Assembly: GCA_002011745.1 (NCBI GenBank)
Contig: MTOU01000012.1
Location: 186,001-250,000, forward strand
DNA length: 64,000 nt
From: Nitrospirae bacterium JdFR-85
GTDB lineage: Bacteria; Nitrospirota; Thermodesulfovibrionia; Thermodesulfovibrionales; JdFR-85
Direction: 5' to 3'
Within the stretch, counting starts at the first letter, position 1, and every line of letters begins with the position of its first letter. Made by a program: the position numbers and the translations under genes. The notes beneath the pieces were generated by a model, which saw only the letters and a list, made by a program, of their open reading frames with translations, ran no database searches and was not told where the DNA came from. Shown here piece after piece: positions 6,623 to 16,255 of the stretch.

Positions 6623-8248
6623 ATGTGGTCTCATTTTCATGAAAGGTTTTTTGTATTTCTTGCACTTATAGCGATACCTTTTATGGGACTTGGTATTTAC
6701 ACTCTTTCTACTTCTCCTATTCTTATTTCAGGGTATATCCTTCCTGCAACAAGATACCATATACAAAGAATTGAGACTATAGAACTTGATCATTCTTTCT
6801 CTAAGGATTTCCCACAATTTTTTACTCTGAAAGAAGAAACCAGATGGTGGCAGATACATGAGAAGGTATATAATCTGCTCATGAAAAAAGATGTTGTTAT
6901 TGTTAGATTTAAAGGAAAGTATTCAGAAGAGGTAAAAGCAAAAGTTGGCGTGATGTCTCTTACAGAAACATTAAAAAGAGTATTTCCTCTCTATGGAGTA
7001 GCAATTATATATATTGTAAGTGCTATTTCAGTTTTTAGAAGGCACCGTTCTATAGCTGGTGTAGTTCTTGCTTTCTTTTTTGTATCAGCCGGTTTGTATT
7101 TTATTAACTGTGCTCCTATGGTAAGTAGAAGTATAACCCTAAGCCCTTTTTATCTTAGGTTTTTCACATTTGCTTCTTATATATCTGCAGGTGGATTGAT
7201 AGCACTTGCCTATTTTGCTCTTGTGTTTCCAAGGAAGAAGAAAATACTGGAAAGACTGCCATGGATACCTTATGTTTTTTATACATATTTAATTTTGAAA
7301 GTTATCATTCACTTTTCTGGATTAGTTCCTTTTGGATTTTCTATCCCCATTGTCTGCATTTGGACTTTTATAATGACCTCTGCATTTATTCATTCACTTA
7401 TTAAAGAGGAGGACCCCTTTCTCAAAAAACAGATATTTTTGGGACTTCTTGCTCCATTATTGGGTGGTGGTGTTTTTATCATGCTATATTTTATTCCTCA
7501 AGTAATAGGTATAGATCATATGAACTTCTCCTCTCTTGTTTTATTTTCCCTCATTCTTCCTTTTACTTTATCTGCTGCACTGGATAATTTTCACCTTTAT
7601 CAAGAAAGACTCAAGATAGAAAGGGCTTCTATCAGAGAAAAAGAGCAAATCTGCCAGGCACTGCATGATAACATAGGAAGCGATCTCATGAATATAAGAT
7701 TTCTAAGTGAAGCTGCAGATCAAACCTTTGCTACTGAGCCTGAGAAAGCAAAAGAGATTATCCAGAATATAAAACAGACCGCCTTAACAAATATAGAACG
7801 ATTAAGGGAGTTCCTCTGGGCAGTGGATATAGAAGAAGATACAGTGAATGATTTAATCTCTTATCTTAAGTCCTACTCTACAAGGGTCTTAGAGCCTTTG
7901 AATATAGATATTGAATTTAATCAGTTGCATAATTCTGAGAATCCTCATCTTGCCCCCATCATAAGATTTAACCTTATTAGTATTTATAGAGAGGCAGTTA
8001 CAAATATTATTAAGCATTCAGGAGCAGAAAAAGTAGAGGTTGAGGTTTTTGTTGATGAGAGTGGTCTGAAGATGAAGATAACAGATAATGGGTGTGGATT
8101 TGATCCTAAGGTCAATTTAACAGGTCATTATGGATTAAAAAATATGAAAAAAAGAGCAGAAGAGATGGGAGGGATGTTGAATATACTATCTACAAAAGGC
8201 AAAGGAACAGAAATCTGTCTTATATTGTCTCGTAAATACCTCAGATGA
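6623..8248 (+). CDS. Membrane histidine kinase, NarX/DegS type (HisKA_3)
   Basis: The 541-residue sensor kinase starts with a transmembrane segment (about 9-31), an extracytoplasmic loop of roughly 90 residues, then about six more membrane spans up to residue 318. The cytoplasmic part has the HisKA_3 phosphoacceptor motif ALHDNIGSDL (His348), an N-box REAVTNIIKHSGA (Asn461) and the G1 box DNGCGF (488-493). It pairs with the NarL-type regulator 69 bases downstream. The signal is unknown; the loop plus multi-span layout suggests sensing of a periplasmic or membrane cue. Its last codons form part of a palindrome found again at 18.26 kb. Confidence 0.9.
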   Translation: MWSHFHERFFVFLALIAIPFMGLGIYTLSTSPILISGYILPATRYHIQRIETIELDHSFSKDFPQFFTLKEETRWWQIHEKVYNLLMKKDVVIVRFKGKYSEEVKAKVGVMSLTETLKRVFPLYGVAIIYIVSAISVFRRHRSIAGVVLAFFFVSAGLYFINCAPMVSRSITLSPFYLRFFTFASYISAGGLIALAYFALVFPRKKKILERLPWIPYVFYTYLILKVIIHFSGLVPFGFSIPIVCIWTFIMTSAFIHSLIKEEDPFLKKQIFLGLLAPLLGGGVFIMLYFIPQVIGIDHMNFSSLVLFSLILPFTLSAALDNFHLYQERLKIERASIREKEQICQALHDNIGSDLMNIRFLSEAADQTFATEPEKAKEIIQNIKQTALTNIERLREFLWAVDIEEDTVNDLISYLKSYSTRVLEPLNIDIEFNQLHNSENPHLAPIIRFNLISIYREAVTNIIKHSGAEKVEVEVFVDESGLKMKITDNGCGFDPKVNLTGHYGLKNMKKRAEEMGGMLNILSTKGKGTEICLILSRKYLR

Positions 8249-8260
8249 GGTATTTACATA
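8231..8260 (+). repeat. Dispersed palindrome at a gene 3' end, copy 1
   Basis: Arms GTAAATACC (8232-8240) and GGTATTTAC (8249-8257) flank an 8-base centre, preceded by C and followed by ATA. The kinase stop codon TGA (8246-8248) ends the 8-base centre. The same framework, with identical arms and flanks but a different centre, occurs on the minus strand at 18261-18290. Confidence 0.7.
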
Positions 8261-8317
8261 AGGATGGATAGGTGATAAAATAAAGTGATTTTTAATATAG
8301 AATAGTCAGGATAAACG

Positions 8318-8950
8318 ATGAAAATTAGAGTAGCTCTTGTAGAAGATCAAAAAAAGACACGGGAGGGATTATTCTTTTTGTTAAAAAATGCAATGGGAAT
8401 AGAGGTGGTAGGTATGTTTAGCACAGGAGAAGAGGCTATAGATGAGATTCCTAAACTTAAACCAGATGTAGTTCTTATAGATCTCGGTCTTCCTGGAATT
8501 TCAGGGATGGAAGTAATAAAAAGATTGAAAGAGCATTTTCCTAAGATGGAGATGCTTGTTCTTACTGTATACGAAGACAGAAAGCATCTGTTTTCAGCTC
8601 TCAAAGCAGGTGCGTCAGGTTATTTATTAAAGGATTCAAGACCTGAAGAGATTGTGAAGGCAGTAAGGGAAATATGTAGTGGAAGTTCACCAATGTCACC
8701 AAAGGTAGCAAGGTATGTAATAGAGTTCTTTCATGGAATGAGGAGGAAAGATGGAACAGAAATTTTGACCAAAAGAGAAAGAGAAATATTAAGTGGTATA
8801 GCTGATGGGCTTACATCTAAAAAACTTGCAGAAAGACTTTATATTAGCCCCCATACAGTGAGGACTCATATAAAGAAAATTTATGATAAGTTACATGTGC
8901 ACTCAAAAGTAGAAGCGGTAATGAAGGCAAAAGAGAAGGGGATATTGTGA
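8318..8950 (+). CDS. NarL/LuxR-family response regulator
   Basis: The 210-residue product has a receiver domain with acidic pocket E9/D10, phosphoacceptor D55 in VVLIDLGLPG, and the K of YLLKDSRP, followed by a LuxR-type helix-turn-helix (LTKREREILSGIADGLTSKKLAERLYISPHTVRTHIKKIY). It should be phosphorylated by the kinase encoded just upstream. Targets are not evident; nearby candidates are the exported proteins at 5.0-6.2 kb and its own operon. Confidence 0.93.
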   Translation: MKIRVALVEDQKKTREGLFFLLKNAMGIEVVGMFSTGEEAIDEIPKLKPDVVLIDLGLPGISGMEVIKRLKEHFPKMEMLVLTVYEDRKHLFSALKAGASGYLLKDSRPEEIVKAVREICSGSSPMSPKVARYVIEFFHGMRRKDGTEILTKREREILSGIADGLTSKKLAERLYISPHTVRTHIKKIYDKLHVHSKVEAVMKAKEKGIL

Positions 8951-9094: not shown

Positions 9095-9131
9095 TTGACA
9101 AAAATATTATAATATTGTAATATTATAATAT
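9095..9131 (+). promoter_or_regulatory. Promoter with overlapping tandem palindromic operators
   Basis: A consensus -35 TTGACA lies at 9095-9100, with TAATAT at 9118-9123 after a 17-base spacer. The region 9103-9116 is the perfect palindrome AATATTATAATATT, and a second near copy fills 9119-9131. The repeats cover the spacer and -10, ideal for an ArsR-type repressor to block RNA polymerase. The predicted start point, about 9130, almost coincides with the ATG at 9132. Confidence 0.75.
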
Positions 9132-9473
9132 ATGCGAGCGATTGGGCTTCAAGCAGAGATACTTAAGGTGATAGGGCATCCGGTGAGACTCAGGATCTTG
9201 GAGGAACTCACAAAGGGTGTGAAGTGTGTGAGTGACCTGGAGGAGTTCCTTGAGGTAAGTCAGTCCAATGTCTCACAGCATCTGGCTATACTCAGACGTT
9301 ATGGACTGATTGACTACTATATGGATGGGAGACTGAGGTGTTACTACCTCGTGGATCCCATGATACCAGACCTGCTGGAGGTGTTGAAGAGAGACTATCA
9401 TGAACAACTTCCACCACCTGCATGCTGTCCTGTAACCCGAAGGGGAAAGTATCCTGGTAAAAGGAGACGTTAA
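9132..9473 (+). CDS. ArsR-family transcriptional repressor of the sulfur cluster
   Basis: The 113-residue protein has an ArsR winged helix: GHPVRLRILEEL, recognition helix VSQSNVSQHLAILRRYGLI (about 43-60) and the wing DGRLRCYYLV. Cysteines C32, C70, C98 and C99 could sense a thiol, persulfide or metal; the CC pair near the tail is notable. It is the first gene of a same-strand series of sulfur genes and probably represses that series and itself through the operators over its promoter. No Shine-Dalgarno precedes the ATG and no plausible internal start exists, so the message is probably leaderless. Confidence 0.88.
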   Translation: MRAIGLQAEILKVIGHPVRLRILEELTKGVKCVSDLEEFLEVSQSNVSQHLAILRRYGLIDYYMDGRLRCYYLVDPMIPDLLEVLKRDYHEQLPPPACCPVTRRGKYPGKRRR

Positions 9474-9500: not shown

Positions 9501-9851
9501 ATGGCAAAGACTTTTACAATATTCTTAACCACACCACCTTATTCGTCAGAGAATACCCTTACTGCAGTAAGAATCGCAGACAGTGCTCTCAGAAAGGGTC
9601 ATAGTGTGAACCTGATAGCCTCAGGAGATGGTGTTTACTGTTTCTTAAAAAAGCAGAAGGCAAAGGGTCTGCCCCATGCCGGAGACCTCTTCTCTGAGCT
9701 GATTGAGAAGGGGCTCAAGGTCTACCTCTGAGGGGGCTGTCTAAACTATCGCCGTGCTGCGAAAGAGGATTATCTTGATGGTACAGAGGTGGGTTCCTTA
9801 AAAGGACTATTCCAGACAATGGAAGAGACAGACATCTGGATCAATCTTTAA
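9501..9851 (+). CDS. DsrE-family sulfur-relay protein, predicted selenoprotein (in-frame UGA = Sec)
   Basis: The first 76 codons encode a DsrE/TusD-like fold (TIFLTTPPYSSENTLTA, LIASGDGVYCFL, DLFSELIEKGLKVYL). Codon 77 (9729-9731) is TGA. The same frame then continues for 39 codons with clear coding character, starting GGCLNYRRAAKEDYLDGTEV and ending at TAA 9849-9851. The full protein is 116 residues, the same length as the DsrE paralogue that follows. Reading TGA as selenocysteine gives U77-G-G-C80, a UxxC redox motif at the place where DsrE proteins carry their active cysteine. A SECIS-like hairpin follows at the right distance. DsrE proteins carry sulfur as persulfide. DsrE-like selenoproteins are known from genome surveys; function here is inferred. 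The alternative is a nonsense-mutated gene. Confidence 0.78.
9746..9765 (+). promoter_or_regulatory. SECIS-like hairpin downstream of the in-frame UGA
   Basis: CTATCGC (9746-9752) pairs with GCGAAAG (9759-9765) except for one A-A mismatch, enclosing a 6-base loop CGTGCT. The loop begins 21 bases after the UGA and has a G at its second position. Both features agree with the bacterial SECIS pattern (loop about 16-37 bases after UGA, G among the first two loop bases). It lies inside the coding sequence, as bacterial SECIS elements do. Confidence 0.65.
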
Positions 9852-9866: not shown

Positions 9867-10217
9867 ATGAGGCTCGCAGTAATATTAACCAAGGCTCCCT
9901 ATGGTGATACCCAGGCTGCTGAGGCAGTAAGACATGCCATAGGGGCCACTGGAGAGGAGATAGAGGTGAAGCTACTGCTTGTGGATGATGGGGTGTATCT
10001 TGCAAAGAAGGGACAGGATGAGGCAGCATCTGGTTATACCAACCTTGGTGAAACACTGAAAGATATTATAGACCTGGGTGGAGAGGTCTTTGTTGAGAAG
10101 GCTTCTTTAAAGGACTCAGGCCTTGAGACGGAGGACATTATTGAAGGGCTTAGTATAGTAAATGGCTACGAACTGTCGCAAATCCTCTTAGATGTAGATA
10201 AAACCATGATTTTTTAG
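9867..10217 (+). CDS. DsrE/DsrF-like protein
   Basis: The 116-residue product starts MRLAVILTKAPYGDTQAAEAVRHA and contains VKLLLVDDGVYLAKKG, the DsrE/F core strand-helix pattern. It has no cysteine at all, so it cannot itself carry persulfide and may be a structural or partner subunit of the Sec-containing DsrE protein. TAAGGAGG precedes the start. It lies between the selenoprotein and a DsrH-like gene, mirroring the DsrE-DsrF-DsrH (TusDCB) three-subunit arrangement. Confidence 0.8.
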   Translation: MRLAVILTKAPYGDTQAAEAVRHAIGATGEEIEVKLLLVDDGVYLAKKGQDEAASGYTNLGETLKDIIDLGGEVFVEKASLKDSGLETEDIIEGLSIVNGYELSQILLDVDKTMIF

Positions 10218-10226
10218 GAGGCCAGT

Positions 10227-10502
10227 ATGCTTGTGTTGATAAAAAGCAGTCCCCATACTAGTGAAGGCAAAAGGGGGCTCAAAATAGCAAGAGACACCTC
10301 ATCAGACATTGTGTTGCTTCAGGATGGGGTGTACTTCATGATTAATGATATGCTTGATGGGTTCTGTGGTACTGCATATGCTGTTAAGGAAGATGTGGCC
10401 TTGAGAGGGCTTTCAGATGTTATAAGAGGGGTGAAGATTATTGACTGGGATGATTTGATTGATAAAATGGTAGAGGAAGATAAGGTGGTTGGCATGTTTT
10501 AG
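10227..10502 (+). CDS. DsrH/TusB-like protein
   Basis: The 91-residue product (MLVLIKSSPH start, DIVLLQDGVYFMI core, short C-terminal helix) matches the size and pattern of DsrH/TusB proteins. It starts nine bases after the previous stop and has AGGAGG before the ATG. DsrH normally joins DsrE and DsrF in a hexamer that hands sulfur to DsrC/TusE-type acceptors. No dsrC is in the window. Confidence 0.8.
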   Translation: MLVLIKSSPHTSEGKRGLKIARDTSSDIVLLQDGVYFMINDMLDGFCGTAYAVKEDVALRGLSDVIRGVKIIDWDDLIDKMVEEDKVVGMF

Positions 10503-10533: not shown

Positions 10534-11724
10534 ATGGCAGAGAAGATTGTTATCTTAGGTGGTTCCTTTGGGGGACTTACCACTGCTTTTGAACTAAAAA
10601 GACTTCTTGGGAAAAGGGTTGAGATAACCGTAGTGTGTGATCAGGACAAATTTGTCTTTATACCCTCGCTGCCCTGGGTTGCTATGGGCTGGCGTAAGCC
10701 AGAAGATATAGTACTTCCCCTTAATAGAGTACTAACCCCTAAAGGGATTTCCTTTATAAATGAAGAGGCGATTAGTGTTGATCCAGACTCCTCAAAGGTT
10801 CTAACCAAAACAAAACAGCTCCAGTATGACTACCTTGTAATTGCTACAGGTCCTGCACTGGTATTTTCTGCAGTGCCTGGTTTTGGTCCAGAAGAGGGAT
10901 ACACAGAGTGTATATTCACCCTGGAGCAGGCATTGAGATGTAATGAGGCGTGGAAGAGGTTTCTTGAAGACCCGGGTCCCATAGTTGTGGGTTCTGTACA
11001 GGGTGTGAGCTGTTTTGGTCCTCCCTATGAGTATGCCTTTGAGGTTGAAACAGAGTTGAAAAAGAGAAAGCTAAGACACAAAGTACCCATAACCTTTGTG
11101 ACATCCGAACCCTATATTGGACACTTTGGTATTGGTGGTCTGGGAAACTCAAAGAGGGTTATGGAGGATGAGTTTGCAAGAAGAGAGATCAAGGTGGTTA
11201 CCAACACGGCGGTTGAAGAATTTACCCCTCAGGAGGTGAGACTAAAGGATGGCACAAAGATACCCTTTAAACTTGCCATGTTTGCACCACCAATGTCAGG
11301 TGTGAAAGCGGTGTATCATCTTGGTAATGAAAAGGGTTTTATACCTGTTGATTCAAACTACAGACACAAGAACTACAAAAACATATTTGCAGTAGGTGTT
11401 GCTGTTGCCATGGCTCCTCCTGAAAAAACTCCTATTCCCACAGGCCTTCCAAAGACAGGATACATGACAGTGGAGATGGCAAAGGATGCAGCAAAAACTA
11501 TTGCATCCGATATACTTGGTAAGGCTCCACCTGAAGTGGAACCTGTAGGTGCAGTCTGTATTATGGATATGGGTAACACGGCTGCCATGATGATTGCAAG
11601 ACCTGTGACACCACCAAGGCAGGTGTCTAAATTAAAATCAGGTATTCATTACAAGTGGCTTAAGGCCGCCTTTGAGAAGTACTATCTATGGAAGATAAAG
11701 CGGGGGCTTACACAACTACCATAG
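10534..11724 (+). CDS. sqr: Sulfide:quinone oxidoreductase
   Basis: The 396-residue flavoprotein has an N-terminal FAD dinucleotide-binding motif (IVILGGSFGGLTTAFEL), a second nucleotide motif (YDYLVIATGPA), and three cysteines at C126 (TECIF), C160 (GVSCFGPPYEYAFE) and C342 (GAVCIMDMG). These match the three redox cysteines of structurally studied SQRs. The C-terminus is amphipathic and basic (WLKAAFEKYYLWKIKRG), suited to membrane association. SQR oxidises sulfide to polysulfide or persulfide and reduces quinone. Position after DsrE/F/H genes suggests its sulfane sulfur is passed to those proteins. Confidence 0.88.
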   Translation: MAEKIVILGGSFGGLTTAFELKRLLGKRVEITVVCDQDKFVFIPSLPWVAMGWRKPEDIVLPLNRVLTPKGISFINEEAISVDPDSSKVLTKTKQLQYDYLVIATGPALVFSAVPGFGPEEGYTECIFTLEQALRCNEAWKRFLEDPGPIVVGSVQGVSCFGPPYEYAFEVETELKKRKLRHKVPITFVTSEPYIGHFGIGGLGNSKRVMEDEFARREIKVVTNTAVEEFTPQEVRLKDGTKIPFKLAMFAPPMSGVKAVYHLGNEKGFIPVDSNYRHKNYKNIFAVGVAVAMAPPEKTPIPTGLPKTGYMTVEMAKDAAKTIASDILGKAPPEVEPVGAVCIMDMGNTAAMMIARPVTPPRQVSKLKSGIHYKWLKAAFEKYYLWKIKRGLTQLP

Positions 11725-11737
11725 AAGGAGGCTTTAG

Positions 11738-14011
11738 ATGTTTATTGGTTTCTCTTTAAGGTATCCGAAGACTGTCATTGTTCTGACTCTTGTAGTGACT
11801 GCCTTCCTATTAATTCAATTCCCGAAGATAAAGATTGATACAGATCCTGAGAATATGCTTTCAGAGGATGAGCCTGTAAGGGTGTTTCATAGGGAGGTGA
11901 AAAAGGAATTCGGGATTCATGAGATGATTGTCCTTGGTATTGTGAGAGATGATGGCATATTCCATTCTGATACCCTCAAAAAGATAAGCGAGATAACCAG
12001 AAAGGTTATGCGTATAAAAGGTGTGATAGCCGATGATGTGATGAGCCTCAGTGTTACAAACAATGTTATTGGCTCAGGTGGGCTTCTGGAGGTGAGGCCG
12101 CCGCTTCAGAGGGTGCCTGAGACAGAGGAGGAGCTGGAGGCATTAAAAAAGGAGGTGCTTGGGAATCCCCTTTTTAAAGACAGGCTTGTCTCCTCTGATG
12201 GAAAAGGGGCGGCTATTTATATTCCTGTAGAGAGTAAAGATGTTGCCCATGAGGTTGCCCAGGAGATAAAGAAGATATACGAGCCACTGAAGGGAAAAGA
12301 AAAATTCTACATGGGAGGGCTTCCTCTTGCAGAGGATACCTTTGGGGCGGAGATGTTCAAACAGATGGCGATTGTTGCACCCCTTGCCGGTGGCTTTCTG
12401 ATGCTTATCCTTCTGATCATCTTCAGACGGATAATGCTTGTAGTGCCTTCAATGGCAGTGGCCATGCTGTCAGTGCTCTGGACTATGGGAGCCATGATAG
12501 GGCTCGGGTTTACTGTACATATAATGTCGTCAATGATACCAGTGTTTCTCATGCCCATTGCGGTATGTGACAGTGTCCATGTGCTCAGTGACTTTTATGA
12601 GAAATACAGAGGCAGAGACAGAGAGGGTGTGCTCAGGGATGTCTTCCGAGAACTATTTAGACCGATGCTTTATACATCACTCACTACTGCCGTGGGTTTT
12701 GCAAATCTTGCATGGGCAAAGATACCACCTGTAAGGGTGTTTGGACTCTTTGTGGCCCTTGGTGTTATGGTCGCATGGCTGCTCAGTGTAACCTTTTTGC
12801 CTGCCTTCCTCAGGCTTCTCAGCGAAAAGAGACTGAAAGGGCTGAAGAAGGAGGAGTCCCGTAGCAGGGTGCTTTCTGCTATGGCTGATCTGTCACTCAC
12901 AAAGAGTAAGGCCATTGTTGTGGTGGGTACCATACTGCTTGTTGTGGCTATATATGGAGTAAGTACTCTGAGGGTTAATGACAATCCAGTAAAGTGGTTT
13001 AAAAAAGACCATCCTATAAGGGTTGCAGATACCGTTCTAAACAGGATTATAGGAGGCACATATATATCCTATCTCGTCTTTGAGGGCAAAAACACAGGAG
13101 ATATAAAAAGGCCAGAGGTTGTAGAGTATATTGACAGGCTTCAGCGGTATCTTGAATCACACCATCTTGTGGGCAAGACCACCTCAGTGGCAGATGTGGT
13201 GAAACGGATAAACTATGTGCTCCATGATGAGGACCCTGCATATGAGAAAGTACCAGCAGACAGTAGCACCATTGGGCAGTATCTCTTTCTGTTTCTTATG
13301 TCCAGCAAGCCTGATGAGCTGGACAATCTCGTGGATTATGATTACAAGAAGGCAAACCTCTGGGTACAACTCCGCTCAGGTGACAACAGAGACATGACAG
13401 AGGTTGTCAGAGCTGTGGAAGAGTATGTGAGGAAGACTCCACTGCCAGAAGGGATCAGTATAAAATGGTCTGGGCTACCCTATCTGAACATTATCTGGCA
13501 GAAGCTCATGGTTAAGGGTATGCTTAAGGCAACTATTGGTTCCTACTGGGTGGTATTTATACTGCTGATGTTTCTCTTCAGGTCTTTCTGGTGGGCCCTT
13601 GTGGCAATACTGCCACTCAGCTTCTCTATACTTTTCAGTTATGGACTTATAGGCTTTGGTGGAAAGGATTACGATATGCCAATAGCAGTATGCTCAACCC
13701 TCACCCTTGGTCTCGGAATAGACTTTGCAATACATTTCTGTCAAAGGTTCAGAAGTTACTTAAGCCAGAGTGGTGACCTTAAGAAGGCGATGCTTTGGGT
13801 TACAAAGGGTGAACCATCTGTTGCAATTGCGAGGAATGCTGTAGTTGTGGGTCTCGGATTTCTTCCACTGGTGCTTGCCACATTGACACCTTATGTAACT
13901 GTGGGCCTCTTTTTCGGTTCTCTTGCCTTCTTTGCAGGTATTACTACCATCTTCTTCCTACCTGCACTAATTGAGACATTCAGAGGCAGACTACTGAAAG
14001 GAGGTTATTAA
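11738..14011 (+). CDS. MMPL/RND-family transporter
   Basis: The 757-residue protein shows two repeats, each with one N-terminal transmembrane helix, a large extracytoplasmic domain, then a bundle of membrane helices. The intramembrane acidic positions VCDSVHVLSDFY (first half) and LGIDFAIHFCQRF (second half) are typical of MMPL/HpnN-like exporters. It starts 13 bases after sqr with GGAGG before the ATG. Together with the next two genes it resembles the RND + LolA-like + outer-membrane barrel trios implicated in moving hydrophobic molecules across the envelope. The cargo is unknown. Confidence 0.85.
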   Translation: MFIGFSLRYPKTVIVLTLVVTAFLLIQFPKIKIDTDPENMLSEDEPVRVFHREVKKEFGIHEMIVLGIVRDDGIFHSDTLKKISEITRKVMRIKGVIADDVMSLSVTNNVIGSGGLLEVRPPLQRVPETEEELEALKKEVLGNPLFKDRLVSSDGKGAAIYIPVESKDVAHEVAQEIKKIYEPLKGKEKFYMGGLPLAEDTFGAEMFKQMAIVAPLAGGFLMLILLIIFRRIMLVVPSMAVAMLSVLWTMGAMIGLGFTVHIMSSMIPVFLMPIAVCDSVHVLSDFYEKYRGRDREGVLRDVFRELFRPMLYTSLTTAVGFANLAWAKIPPVRVFGLFVALGVMVAWLLSVTFLPAFLRLLSEKRLKGLKKEESRSRVLSAMADLSLTKSKAIVVVGTILLVVAIYGVSTLRVNDNPVKWFKKDHPIRVADTVLNRIIGGTYISYLVFEGKNTGDIKRPEVVEYIDRLQRYLESHHLVGKTTSVADVVKRINYVLHDEDPAYEKVPADSSTIGQYLFLFLMSSKPDELDNLVDYDYKKANLWVQLRSGDNRDMTEVVRAVEEYVRKTPLPEGISIKWSGLPYLNIIWQKLMVKGMLKATIGSYWVVFILLMFLFRSFWWALVAILPLSFSILFSYGLIGFGGKDYDMPIAVCSTLTLGLGIDFAIHFCQRFRSYLSQSGDLKKAMLWVTKGEPSVAIARNAVVVGLGFLPLVLATLTPYVTVGLFFGSLAFFAGITTIFFLPALIETFRGRLLKGGY

Positions 14012-14803
14012 ATGAAGAGATTCTTAGTGCCTTTCATCATACTTTTTATTCTGATAACATCAGTTTATGCCCAGGATGCAAGAGAGATTATGACAAAGTC
14101 ACAGAAGGCATTCCTCTATGCAGGTGAGGATCTCAAAGTCAGGGTCACTATGAGACTGATATCCTCCACAGGGAAGGTCCGTCTGAGAGAACTAACCATG
14201 CTGAGAAAGAACATCGGTCCTGCAGGAGGCAAGCAGAAGTACTATATATACTTTCATGCACCTGCAGATGTGAAGGGTATGACCTTTATGGTTTATAAAT
14301 ACCCAGAAAGGGACGATGACCGATGGCTCTTTATTCCAGCTCTTAATATGGTGAGAAGGATTGCAGCAAGAGACAAGGCATCCAGCTTTGTTGGTTCAGA
14401 CTTTACTTATGAGGATGTCTCTGGCAGAGATATTGATGATGACCTTCACGAACTATTAAAGGAGGACATGCTAAATGGGGAAAAGTGTTTTGTGATAAAG
14501 AGCACGCCCAGAAAGGCGGATGTGGATTATGCCTACAGGGTGTCCTGGATTTCAGAGGAGAGCTTTTTACCACTGAAGGTGGAGTACTATGACCTGAGTG
14601 GGCGACCCTACAAGCTCTTTACAGCAGATGAAATAGAGACGGTTAAAGGATTTCCCACTGTTGTAAAAAGAACCATGAAGAATCTACAGAGTGGTCATAG
14701 GACAGAGGTGGTATTCACAGAAGTTGATTATAACATCGGACTGCCAGAGGCACTCTTTTCTGAGAGATTCCTGAGAAGAGCACCCCAGAAATGGATAAAA
14801 TAG
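14012..14803 (+). CDS. Periplasmic LolA-like outer membrane lipoprotein-sorting family protein
   Basis: The 263-residue product has a signal peptide cleaved near VYAQDA and the features of the LolA-like family that accompanies MMPL transporters: repeated strands such as KYYIYFHAPADVKGMTFMVY, DDRWLFIPALNMVRRI, SSFVGSDFTYEDVSGRD and a GFPTVVKRTMKNL C-terminal strand. The ATG follows the transporter stop without a gap. It likely acts as a periplasmic carrier between the transporter and the outer membrane; substrate unknown. Confidence 0.82.
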   Translation: MKRFLVPFIILFILITSVYAQDAREIMTKSQKAFLYAGEDLKVRVTMRLISSTGKVRLRELTMLRKNIGPAGGKQKYYIYFHAPADVKGMTFMVYKYPERDDDRWLFIPALNMVRRIAARDKASSFVGSDFTYEDVSGRDIDDDLHELLKEDMLNGEKCFVIKSTPRKADVDYAYRVSWISEESFLPLKVEYYDLSGRPYKLFTADEIETVKGFPTVVKRTMKNLQSGHRTEVVFTEVDYNIGLPEALFSERFLRRAPQKWIK

Positions 14804-14843: not shown

Positions 14844-14994
14844 GGTAGGTTGGTCTGCTGAAGAACAGGATTTCAGCGACACCGACAGTGCCTCTGTAAA
14901 TCTAACCATCTTCACTCAATAGGTAAAAAAGGTTCAGGATATTTATGAATAAAATTCGTCGCATAAATCCTGTGATAAGGCAGACCAACCTGCC
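14844..14994. repeat. Inverted repeat flanking the barrel-protein start
   Basis: GGTAGGTTGGTCTGC at 14844-14858 and GCAGACCAACCTGCC at 14980-14994 are inverted copies with one mismatch, about 120 bases apart, spanning the intergenic gap and the first codons of the next gene. No target-site duplication is visible. It may be a regulatory stem or the trace of a small element. Confidence 0.45.
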
Positions 14995-16255
14995 TATTAA
15001 AAGCGATAAAATAGACAGAAGAGTGAATGTAAAAGGGTGTTTGATATGTATAATTTTACTGTTAGCCTCAACTGTAGCAGAGGGTTTTGAATTCTCTCTT
15101 AATGGTTTTCTTCAGGGCAACTATTCTTTTAATACCGCCTCAAGCAGTCCCGATGGAGGAGACCTCAAGTGGGCAGAGGAGCGGATACAGTTAAAGCTTG
15201 ACATAAGCAATGAACAACTGAGACTCTTTTCAAAAACCGGACTTTACTATGACAATATAGACAGAGATGTAGGAGTTGATTTCAGAGAGGTATATTTTGA
15301 TTATACAGGTATCTCTTTTGACCTCCGTGCAGGCAGGCAGATAATTACATGGGGGCTTGGTGATCTTGTTTTTATAAACGATATATTTCCAAAGGACTAT
15401 GAGGCATTCTTTTCAGGAAGGCCTTTGGAGTATCTGAAACTCCCGGTGGATGCACTGAAGATCGGTCTTTATCCTGCTCTGCTCTCCATAGATATCGTGA
15501 TTCTACCCTTTTTTGAACCAAACAACCTGCCTAACAGACAGAGGTTCTGGCTCTATGACCCTATGGAGGGTATCTCAGAAAGGAAGGAGCTGAAGCCCTC
15601 TAAGAGTCTGAAAAATACAGAGATAGCCATGAGGTTTTATAGGAACCTCGCAGGTGTGGATGTAGCAGTATACTTTTATCGGGGGTTTTACAGAATGCCC
15701 TCTGCAGAGCCTGCCATCCTTTCGGGTCTCAGACTTTTTTATCCATCACTTTCTGTTTACGGGGTGAGTCTTCAGTACAGTGCACTGAAAGGTGTGATGA
15801 GTGTTGAGGCTGGTTATTATAACTCAAGAGAAGACAGAGAGGGTACTAATCCTTTCATTCCAAACTCAAGCCTGAAGTTTCTCATCGGATATCAACAGCA
15901 GCTATGGGAGGACTTTACTGTGACACTCCAGTATTTTGGAGAGTACATGGAGGATTACTCTGAGTATCTTAAAACCCTTCCTGAAGGTGTTCCAAAGATG
16001 AGGAGGTTTACTGATCTTCTCTCTATAAGGCTCACCCAGTTACTGATGCATCAGACACTCAGGCTCTCATACTTCTCGTTCTGGAGCCTCTCAGATGGAG
16101 ACTATCTTCTTAACCCTGAGATAAGATACAGTTTTACTGACAGTGTCTGGGCCTCTTTTGGTGCAATGGTATTCGGAGGAGGTGAGCCTTGGAGCCAGTT
16201 CGGAAGCCTTGATAGGAATGATAATGTTTATGTTCAGATGAGGTATGAGTTTTAG
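14945..16255 (+). CDS. Outer-membrane beta-barrel protein (DUF1302/porin-like)
   Basis: The 436-residue product has a signal peptide (CLICIILLLASTVAEG) and then alternating amphipathic strands (FSLNGFLQGNYSF, LSVYGVSLQYSAL, FTVTLQYFGEYME) ending in a terminal aromatic (VQMRYEF), the outer-membrane insertion signature. About 27 residues precede the hydrophobic core, long for a signal peptide; a GTG at 15023 is an alternative start. It completes the RND/LolA-like/barrel trio. It is probably the outer-membrane acceptor or channel, but this is inference. Confidence 0.72.
   Translation: MNKIRRINPVIRQTNLPIKSDKIDRRVNVKGCLICIILLLASTVAEGFEFSLNGFLQGNYSFNTASSSPDGGDLKWAEERIQLKLDISNEQLRLFSKTGLYYDNIDRDVGVDFREVYFDYTGISFDLRAGRQIITWGLGDLVFINDIFPKDYEAFFSGRPLEYLKLPVDALKIGLYPALLSIDIVILPFFEPNNLPNRQRFWLYDPMEGISERKELKPSKSLKNTEIAMRFYRNLAGVDVAVYFYRGFYRMPSAEPAILSGLRLFYPSLSVYGVSLQYSALKGVMSVEAGYYNSREDREGTNPFIPNSSLKFLIGYQQQLWEDFTVTLQYFGEYMEDYSEYLKTLPEGVPKMRRFTDLLSIRLTQLLMHQTLRLSYFSFWSLSDGDYLLNPEIRYSFTDSVWASFGAMVFGGGEPWSQFGSLDRNDNVYVQMRYEF

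Follow-up and report, generated by a model that had tools for sequence, protein, structure and literature searches.

The window, i.e. the whole stretch of 64,000 nt of DNA from Nitrospirae bacterium JdFR-85 that was analysed, carries a DsrE-family gene with a single in-frame TGA, placed between the gene of an ArsR-type repressor and genes for DsrF-like, DsrH-like and sulfide:quinone oxidoreductase (SQR) proteins (Table 1). This order, often followed by MMPL, LolA and porin-type genes, points to an operon, for which we infer co-transcription. Past the TGA the frame stays open for 39 codons up to a TAA at 9849-9851, and with the TGA read as selenocysteine (Sec) the product comprises 116 residues with Sec77 embedded in Y-L-U-G-G-C. 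The coordinates, the length and the motif given in a preliminary description of the locus are exact in all these points. In the Pfam DsrE profile the read-through protein scores 66 bits (E 4.4e-18; cut-off 22.7) and is matched up to residue 114, as compared to 45.4 bits for the form truncated at 76 residues. It combines a DsrE match above the cut-off with a U-x-x-C motif, as the PF02635 UxxC selenoproteins do (variants UGGC, UTGC and USGC). Further frames in the window that are broken by one TGA and have a Cys close to it were judged by eye, and none resembled a conserved coding frame.

Table 1. Features of the locus, with positions in the window
Feature	Position	Strand	Support
Inverted repeat, perfect over 13+13 nt, immediately 5' of arsR; likely operator	9104-9131		
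ArsR/SmtB-family repressor	9132-9473	+	NCBIfam NF033788, 80 bits (cut-off 55)
DsrE-family selenoprotein gene, 116 aa with Sec	9501-9851	+	Pfam DsrE, E 4.4e-18; homologues with one TGA
In-frame UGA, predicted Sec77, first residue of UGGC	9729-9731	+	92/92 Sec-type sequences; YchN alignment
Predicted bacterial SECIS hairpin, loop CGTGCT	9746-9765	+	Pairing over 92 sequences; compensatory pairs; codon constraint
DsrF/TusC-like subunit, no Cys in window copy	9867-10217	+	TIGR03010, E 3.4e-13, below equivalog cut-off
DsrH/TusB-like subunit	10227-10502	+	Pfam DsrH, 39.9 bits; TIGR03011, 48.2 bits (cut-off 49.2)
Sulfide:quinone oxidoreductase (SQR)	10534-11724	+	Aquifex aeolicus SQR 3hyv, E 1.4e-105
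MMPL/RND-superfamily transporter	11738-14011	+	Pfam MMPL, E 1.9e-40; 35/52 loci
LolA-like outer-membrane lipoprotein-sorting protein	14012-14803	+	Pfam PF17131, E 2e-65; 25/47 loci
DUF1302-like putative outer-membrane barrel	14945-16255	+	Pfam PF06980, E 1.6e-4, just under cut-off; 26/45 loci

Gene neighbourhoods were compared on 74 titled contigs, all from Nitrospirota except for one labelled Nitrospinota and two labelled "uncultured bacterium"; only loci with enough sequence entered the denominators. A DsrF-like gene lies 3' of the Sec-type dsrE in every locus (72/72), a DsrH-like gene follows in 66/67 and SQR in 52/62, and arsR is found 5' in 44/55. The MMPL, LolA-like and barrel genes are less constant than the DsrF- and DsrH-like ones. 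The adjoining gene of 116 codons, previously taken for a DsrE paralogue, has the length that was claimed, but its product is DsrF/TusC-like and not a second DsrE. Three adjacent genes of the types E, F and H are thus present, as in DsrEFH and TusBCD gene sets; the F- and H-like partners stay under their equivalog cut-offs, and complex formation is therefore not certain. The SQR has conserved Cys126, Cys160 and Cys342, the three cysteines expected of such an enzyme, and its closest similarity is to the solved Aquifex SQR.

In the repressor Cys 32, 70, 98 and 99 are invariant (59/59 loci). An assignment to the SqrR/BigR type of persulfide sensor by Cys spacing was considered and found unsupported, as C32 does not stand opposite an SqrR cysteine in the alignment. 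The inverted repeat abuts the arsR start so closely that an ordinary ribosome-binding site would not fit in between; judged from its sequence it is likely an operator, and the arsR mRNA is possibly leaderless. Genes for a histidine kinase and a response regulator (6623-8950) lie directly 5' of arsR, a placement that few relatives share.

Decoding of the in-frame UGA

A search of 396 genomes of the same phylum (threshold E <= 1e-15) returned homologues in 96 genomes, with exactly one TGA inside the match in 92 and no TGA in four. Among the 96 distinct sequences extracted, codon 77 is TGA in 92 and TGC or TGT in four, the latter all from one family (f23), and not a single sequence ends naturally at this codon. 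All 92 distinct Sec-type sequences have a Cys three residues after the TGA. The Cys at residue 77 that the preliminary description had called for in an alignment is found in these four homologues, in a paralogue in the same genome (CEAC) and in YchN of Escherichia coli. Sequence 3' of the TGA is under the same selection as that 5' of it (pN/pS 0.07-0.25, window versus relatives). The Sec-type sequences form two subfamilies of about 116 and about 111 residues, both of which sometimes occur within one genome, and the Cys clade is separate from the Sec clades with 97/80 support in a tree with very distant outgroups. In one relative (L055 / L145) the frame is shifted by a few bases just past the TGA, by assembly error or in a decaying copy. 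The CEAC paralogue, a second YchN-like DsrE only distantly related to the Sec protein, is encoded at C2:24185-24463 (L002), some 0.5 kb from a tusA gene (C2:24991-25206, L167).

The hairpin 3' of the UGA reads CTATCGC-CGTGCT-GCGAAAG, with seven stem positions, one A.A mismatch and a G as second loop base, all as first described; its starting distance, formerly given as 21 bases, needs correction, since, counted from the last base of the UGA, the stem begins at 15 nt and the loop at 22 nt. The window hairpin has little stability when folded by itself (-3.9 kcal/mol, z -1.26), and an Rfam scan of the region recognised neither a SECIS nor any other credible RNA, so that the case for a SECIS depends on comparison. 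Over the 92 Sec sequences 6.17 of the 7 stem positions pair on average, against 4.09 +/- 0.08 in synonymous-codon shuffles, an effect far outside an SD that overstates independence because the sequences are related; with the arms slid against each other the pairing drops to 2.6-4.0. Compensatory changes are seen at three stem positions (T-A/A-T, T-A/G-C/C-G and T-A/C-G), and loop positions 2-3 are GT in 86/92. In the 45 sequences first examined the Arg codon at +7 is CGC in 44/45 and the Ala codon at +10 is GCG in 43/43, as opposed to CGC in just 11/90 Arg codons located 5' in the same genes. The Cys homologues (n=4) have lost the hairpin and retain only 3-4 of the 7 stem pairs. Constraint at the RNA level and covariation among relatives hence agree with the SECIS proposed near the UGA. 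A conservation of the hairpin that goes far beyond what the protein requires identifies it, on comparative grounds, as a SECIS.

The genome itself (2.3 Mb, estimated 100% complete) encodes the machinery that had been named as a check on the proposal, with selA (621 bits), selB (395) and selD (325) all scoring above their family cut-offs, plus a tRNA-Sec of 73.6 bits with anticodon TCA. The selD gene (L020, C13:6948-7868) holds one in-frame TGA near the N-terminus; SelD is therefore probably a selenoprotein, too. In two drafts with the Sec gene, G034 (L043, 77% complete) and G041 (L052, 96% complete), the latter with the gene on a 5.3-kb contig, no selA or selB over the cut-off was found, probably a matter of assembly or binning gaps. 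The presence or absence of selA was also tried as a discriminating test and proved uninformative, as selA occurs almost throughout the phylum and also in 3/4 of the Cys-type genomes.

A true stop, a pseudogene or a sequencing error, leaving a protein of 76 residues or nothing at all, could draw on the weakness of the single hairpin and on the fact that TGA is the normal stop of other genes in the window. It can hardly be reconciled with an exact TGA in 92 distinct sequences, selection after the TGA, the codon constraint and the Cys homologues, and its probability is negligible. That the codon is a natural stop, or the gene a decayed one, is excluded because the TGA is conserved and the sequence after it is under purifying selection. 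A reassignment of TGA is rejected as well, given that TGA ends neighbouring genes as a normal stop. Taken together, the comparisons identify 9501-9851 as a DsrE-family selenoprotein gene, with the UGA predicted to be decoded as Sec77.

Fold and proposed role of the Sec protein

An AlphaFold2 monomer model (pLDDT 90, pTM 0.84) predicts a strand at 73-77 followed by a helix at 78-83, which puts Sec77 at the strand-helix junction. The best PDB matches to the predicted fold are YchN (TM 0.89), TusD (0.89), DsrF of DsrEFH (0.88) and DsrE of DsrEFH (0.87), and in an alignment with E. coli YchN (PDB 1jx7) Sec77 stands opposite the leading Cys of LCKTC. With 22.1 bits the protein lies far under the cut-off of the TusD/DsrE equivalog TIGR03012 (89.25) and is therefore DsrE-fold and YchN-like rather than DsrE proper. 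It is predicted to work like DsrE, yet it is not filed as TusD/DsrE proper.

DsrEFH and TusBCD have an established role in persulfide transfer. Across the three Dsr-like subunits no Cys or Sec is invariant other than Sec77 and Cys80, and with this pair as the sole conserved chalcogen centre a selenium-dependent step in sulfane-sulfur transfer would, considering the operon context, be the likeliest role. In the mechanism we propose, SelB and tRNA-Sec would insert Sec at UGA codon 77, guided by the SECIS that starts 15 nt later. The Sec protein would take the place of the catalytic subunit in a DsrE-DsrF-DsrH-like set, presumably as a hetero-oligomer with its partners, and this set would be made together with SQR under a thiol-rich ArsR repressor. 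Sulfane sulfur originating from SQR, the presumed donor, would be accepted on Sec77 as Se-S (selenopersulfide) by way of a putative persulfide chemistry, Cys80 would assist as resolving residue, and the sulfur would be passed on, probably to a TusA-type carrier. The same genome contains dsrAB and six tusA genes. As a whole, Sec decoding combined with a selenopersulfide relay from SQR through the DsrE-F-H-like set is in our estimate the best explanation of the locus, with a probability of about 0.72.

DsrE members may also be plain thiol-redox proteins. A genuine selenoprotein that acts as a thiol-disulfide or metalloid-detoxifying UxxC redox enzyme, with ArsR sensing metal or arsenite, is unlikely. 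In its favour, UxxC is the classic redox motif, the repressor with its four invariant cysteines fits the metalloregulator subfamily NF033788, and numerous bacterial selenoproteins are linked to Hg/As resistance according to a recent review (PMC13188914). The operon speaks a different language: its nearest conserved neighbours (DsrF-like, DsrH-like, SQR) are sulfane-sulfur proteins, and neither an arsenic nor a mercury gene is among the genes identified in it. In an export scenario SQR would form polysulfide or S0, the Sec-DsrE-F-H set would handle it, and MMPL, LolA and porin would expel hydrophobic sulfur or a lipid carrier from the cell. The three genes do stand 3' of the set in roughly one half to two thirds of the loci, but they are absent or displaced in many others, and genes of this type are common elsewhere in lipid transport; we consider export highly improbable.

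Only slightly better are the prospects of a selenium carrier as proposed for YedF, in which Sec77 or the complex would convey selenide to the synthesis of selenoproteins. YedF, in which a TusA-like domain is joined to a DsrE domain, occurs together with selD (PMC5322559), and the Sec protein shows a weak similarity to TIGR03527 (E 0.009). However, the operon is built around SQR, no sel gene or selenocysteine lyase is among its identified genes, and a Sec-dependent carrier would be required for its own synthesis, all of which makes such a function very unlikely.

The selenopersulfide relay may extend beyond the window. According to a 2024 survey of the phylum, which also treats its sulfur physiology, the majority of Thermodesulfovibrionia that carry reductive dsrAB "possess dsrFH, but no dsrE" (PMC11033732). 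The Sec protein may explain this observation by filling the dsrE slot, although that survey could just as well have missed it on account of its distance from DsrE proper. A phylum-wide selenium relay of Nitrospirota, with Sec in the catalytic subunit of a DsrEFH-like set that constitutes the UGA-hidden, divergent "missing dsrE" of Thermodesulfovibrionia, is a tentative idea to which we give somewhat less than an even chance. In many Nitrospirota genomes standard gene callers would cut the protein at 76 residues, and its active site would be lost. If the relay reading is true, selenium would take part in the sulfane-sulfur path of a major group of subsurface bacteria that cycle sulfur, and a selenoprotein family already known but still without an assigned function would acquire a testable role.

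Relation to known systems

DsrE-like UxxC selenoproteins were reported from the Sargasso Sea metagenome in 2005 (PMC1088965), from Desulfovibrio vulgaris in 2006 (PMC1794560) and in the GOS survey (PMC2398784), in line with the earlier remark that surveys had already met with them. They reappear in a 2022 review (PMC9312934), and the 2026 review (PMC13188914) still counts DsrE-like proteins among the largely uncharacterised selenoproteins. The cited portions of this literature describe no operon or function for them, and we found no report of DsrE-like selenoproteins in Nitrospirota in the open-access literature. The protein type has thus been known since 2005; new is that very many Nitrospirota share it, and in a conserved sulfide-oxidation cluster. 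Compared by the descriptions in those cited portions, the earlier proteins have PF02635, UxxC and a bacterial SECIS directly 3' in common with ours but comprise few sequences, whereas the type found in the window is phylum-wide and associated with DsrF/DsrH-like proteins, SQR and ArsR.

With DsrEFH of A. vinosum (2hy5) and TusBCD of E. coli (2d1p) the system shares the fold, the E-F-H order and a single catalytic chalcogen on E; it differs in a YchN-like E subunit with UxxC and in partners below or just at the equivalog cut-offs. E. coli YchN (1jx7) is the best match both in sequence and in fold, its LCKTC standing opposite L-U-G-G-C, but has Cys where the window protein has Sec. The selenium-metabolism protein YedF (TIGR03527) has a DsrE domain, a CGxC motif and a link to selenium in common with the window protein, which in contrast lacks the TusA-like domain, scores 15.8 bits against a cut-off of 110 and has the Sec within its own chain. 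NCBIfam NF049943 (SQR_III_seleno) represents a further selenoprotein in sulfide oxidation, to which the window SQR is a weak match (119 bits, cut-off 525); the window SQR has Cys and no TGA, and the Sec is located in its DsrE partner instead.
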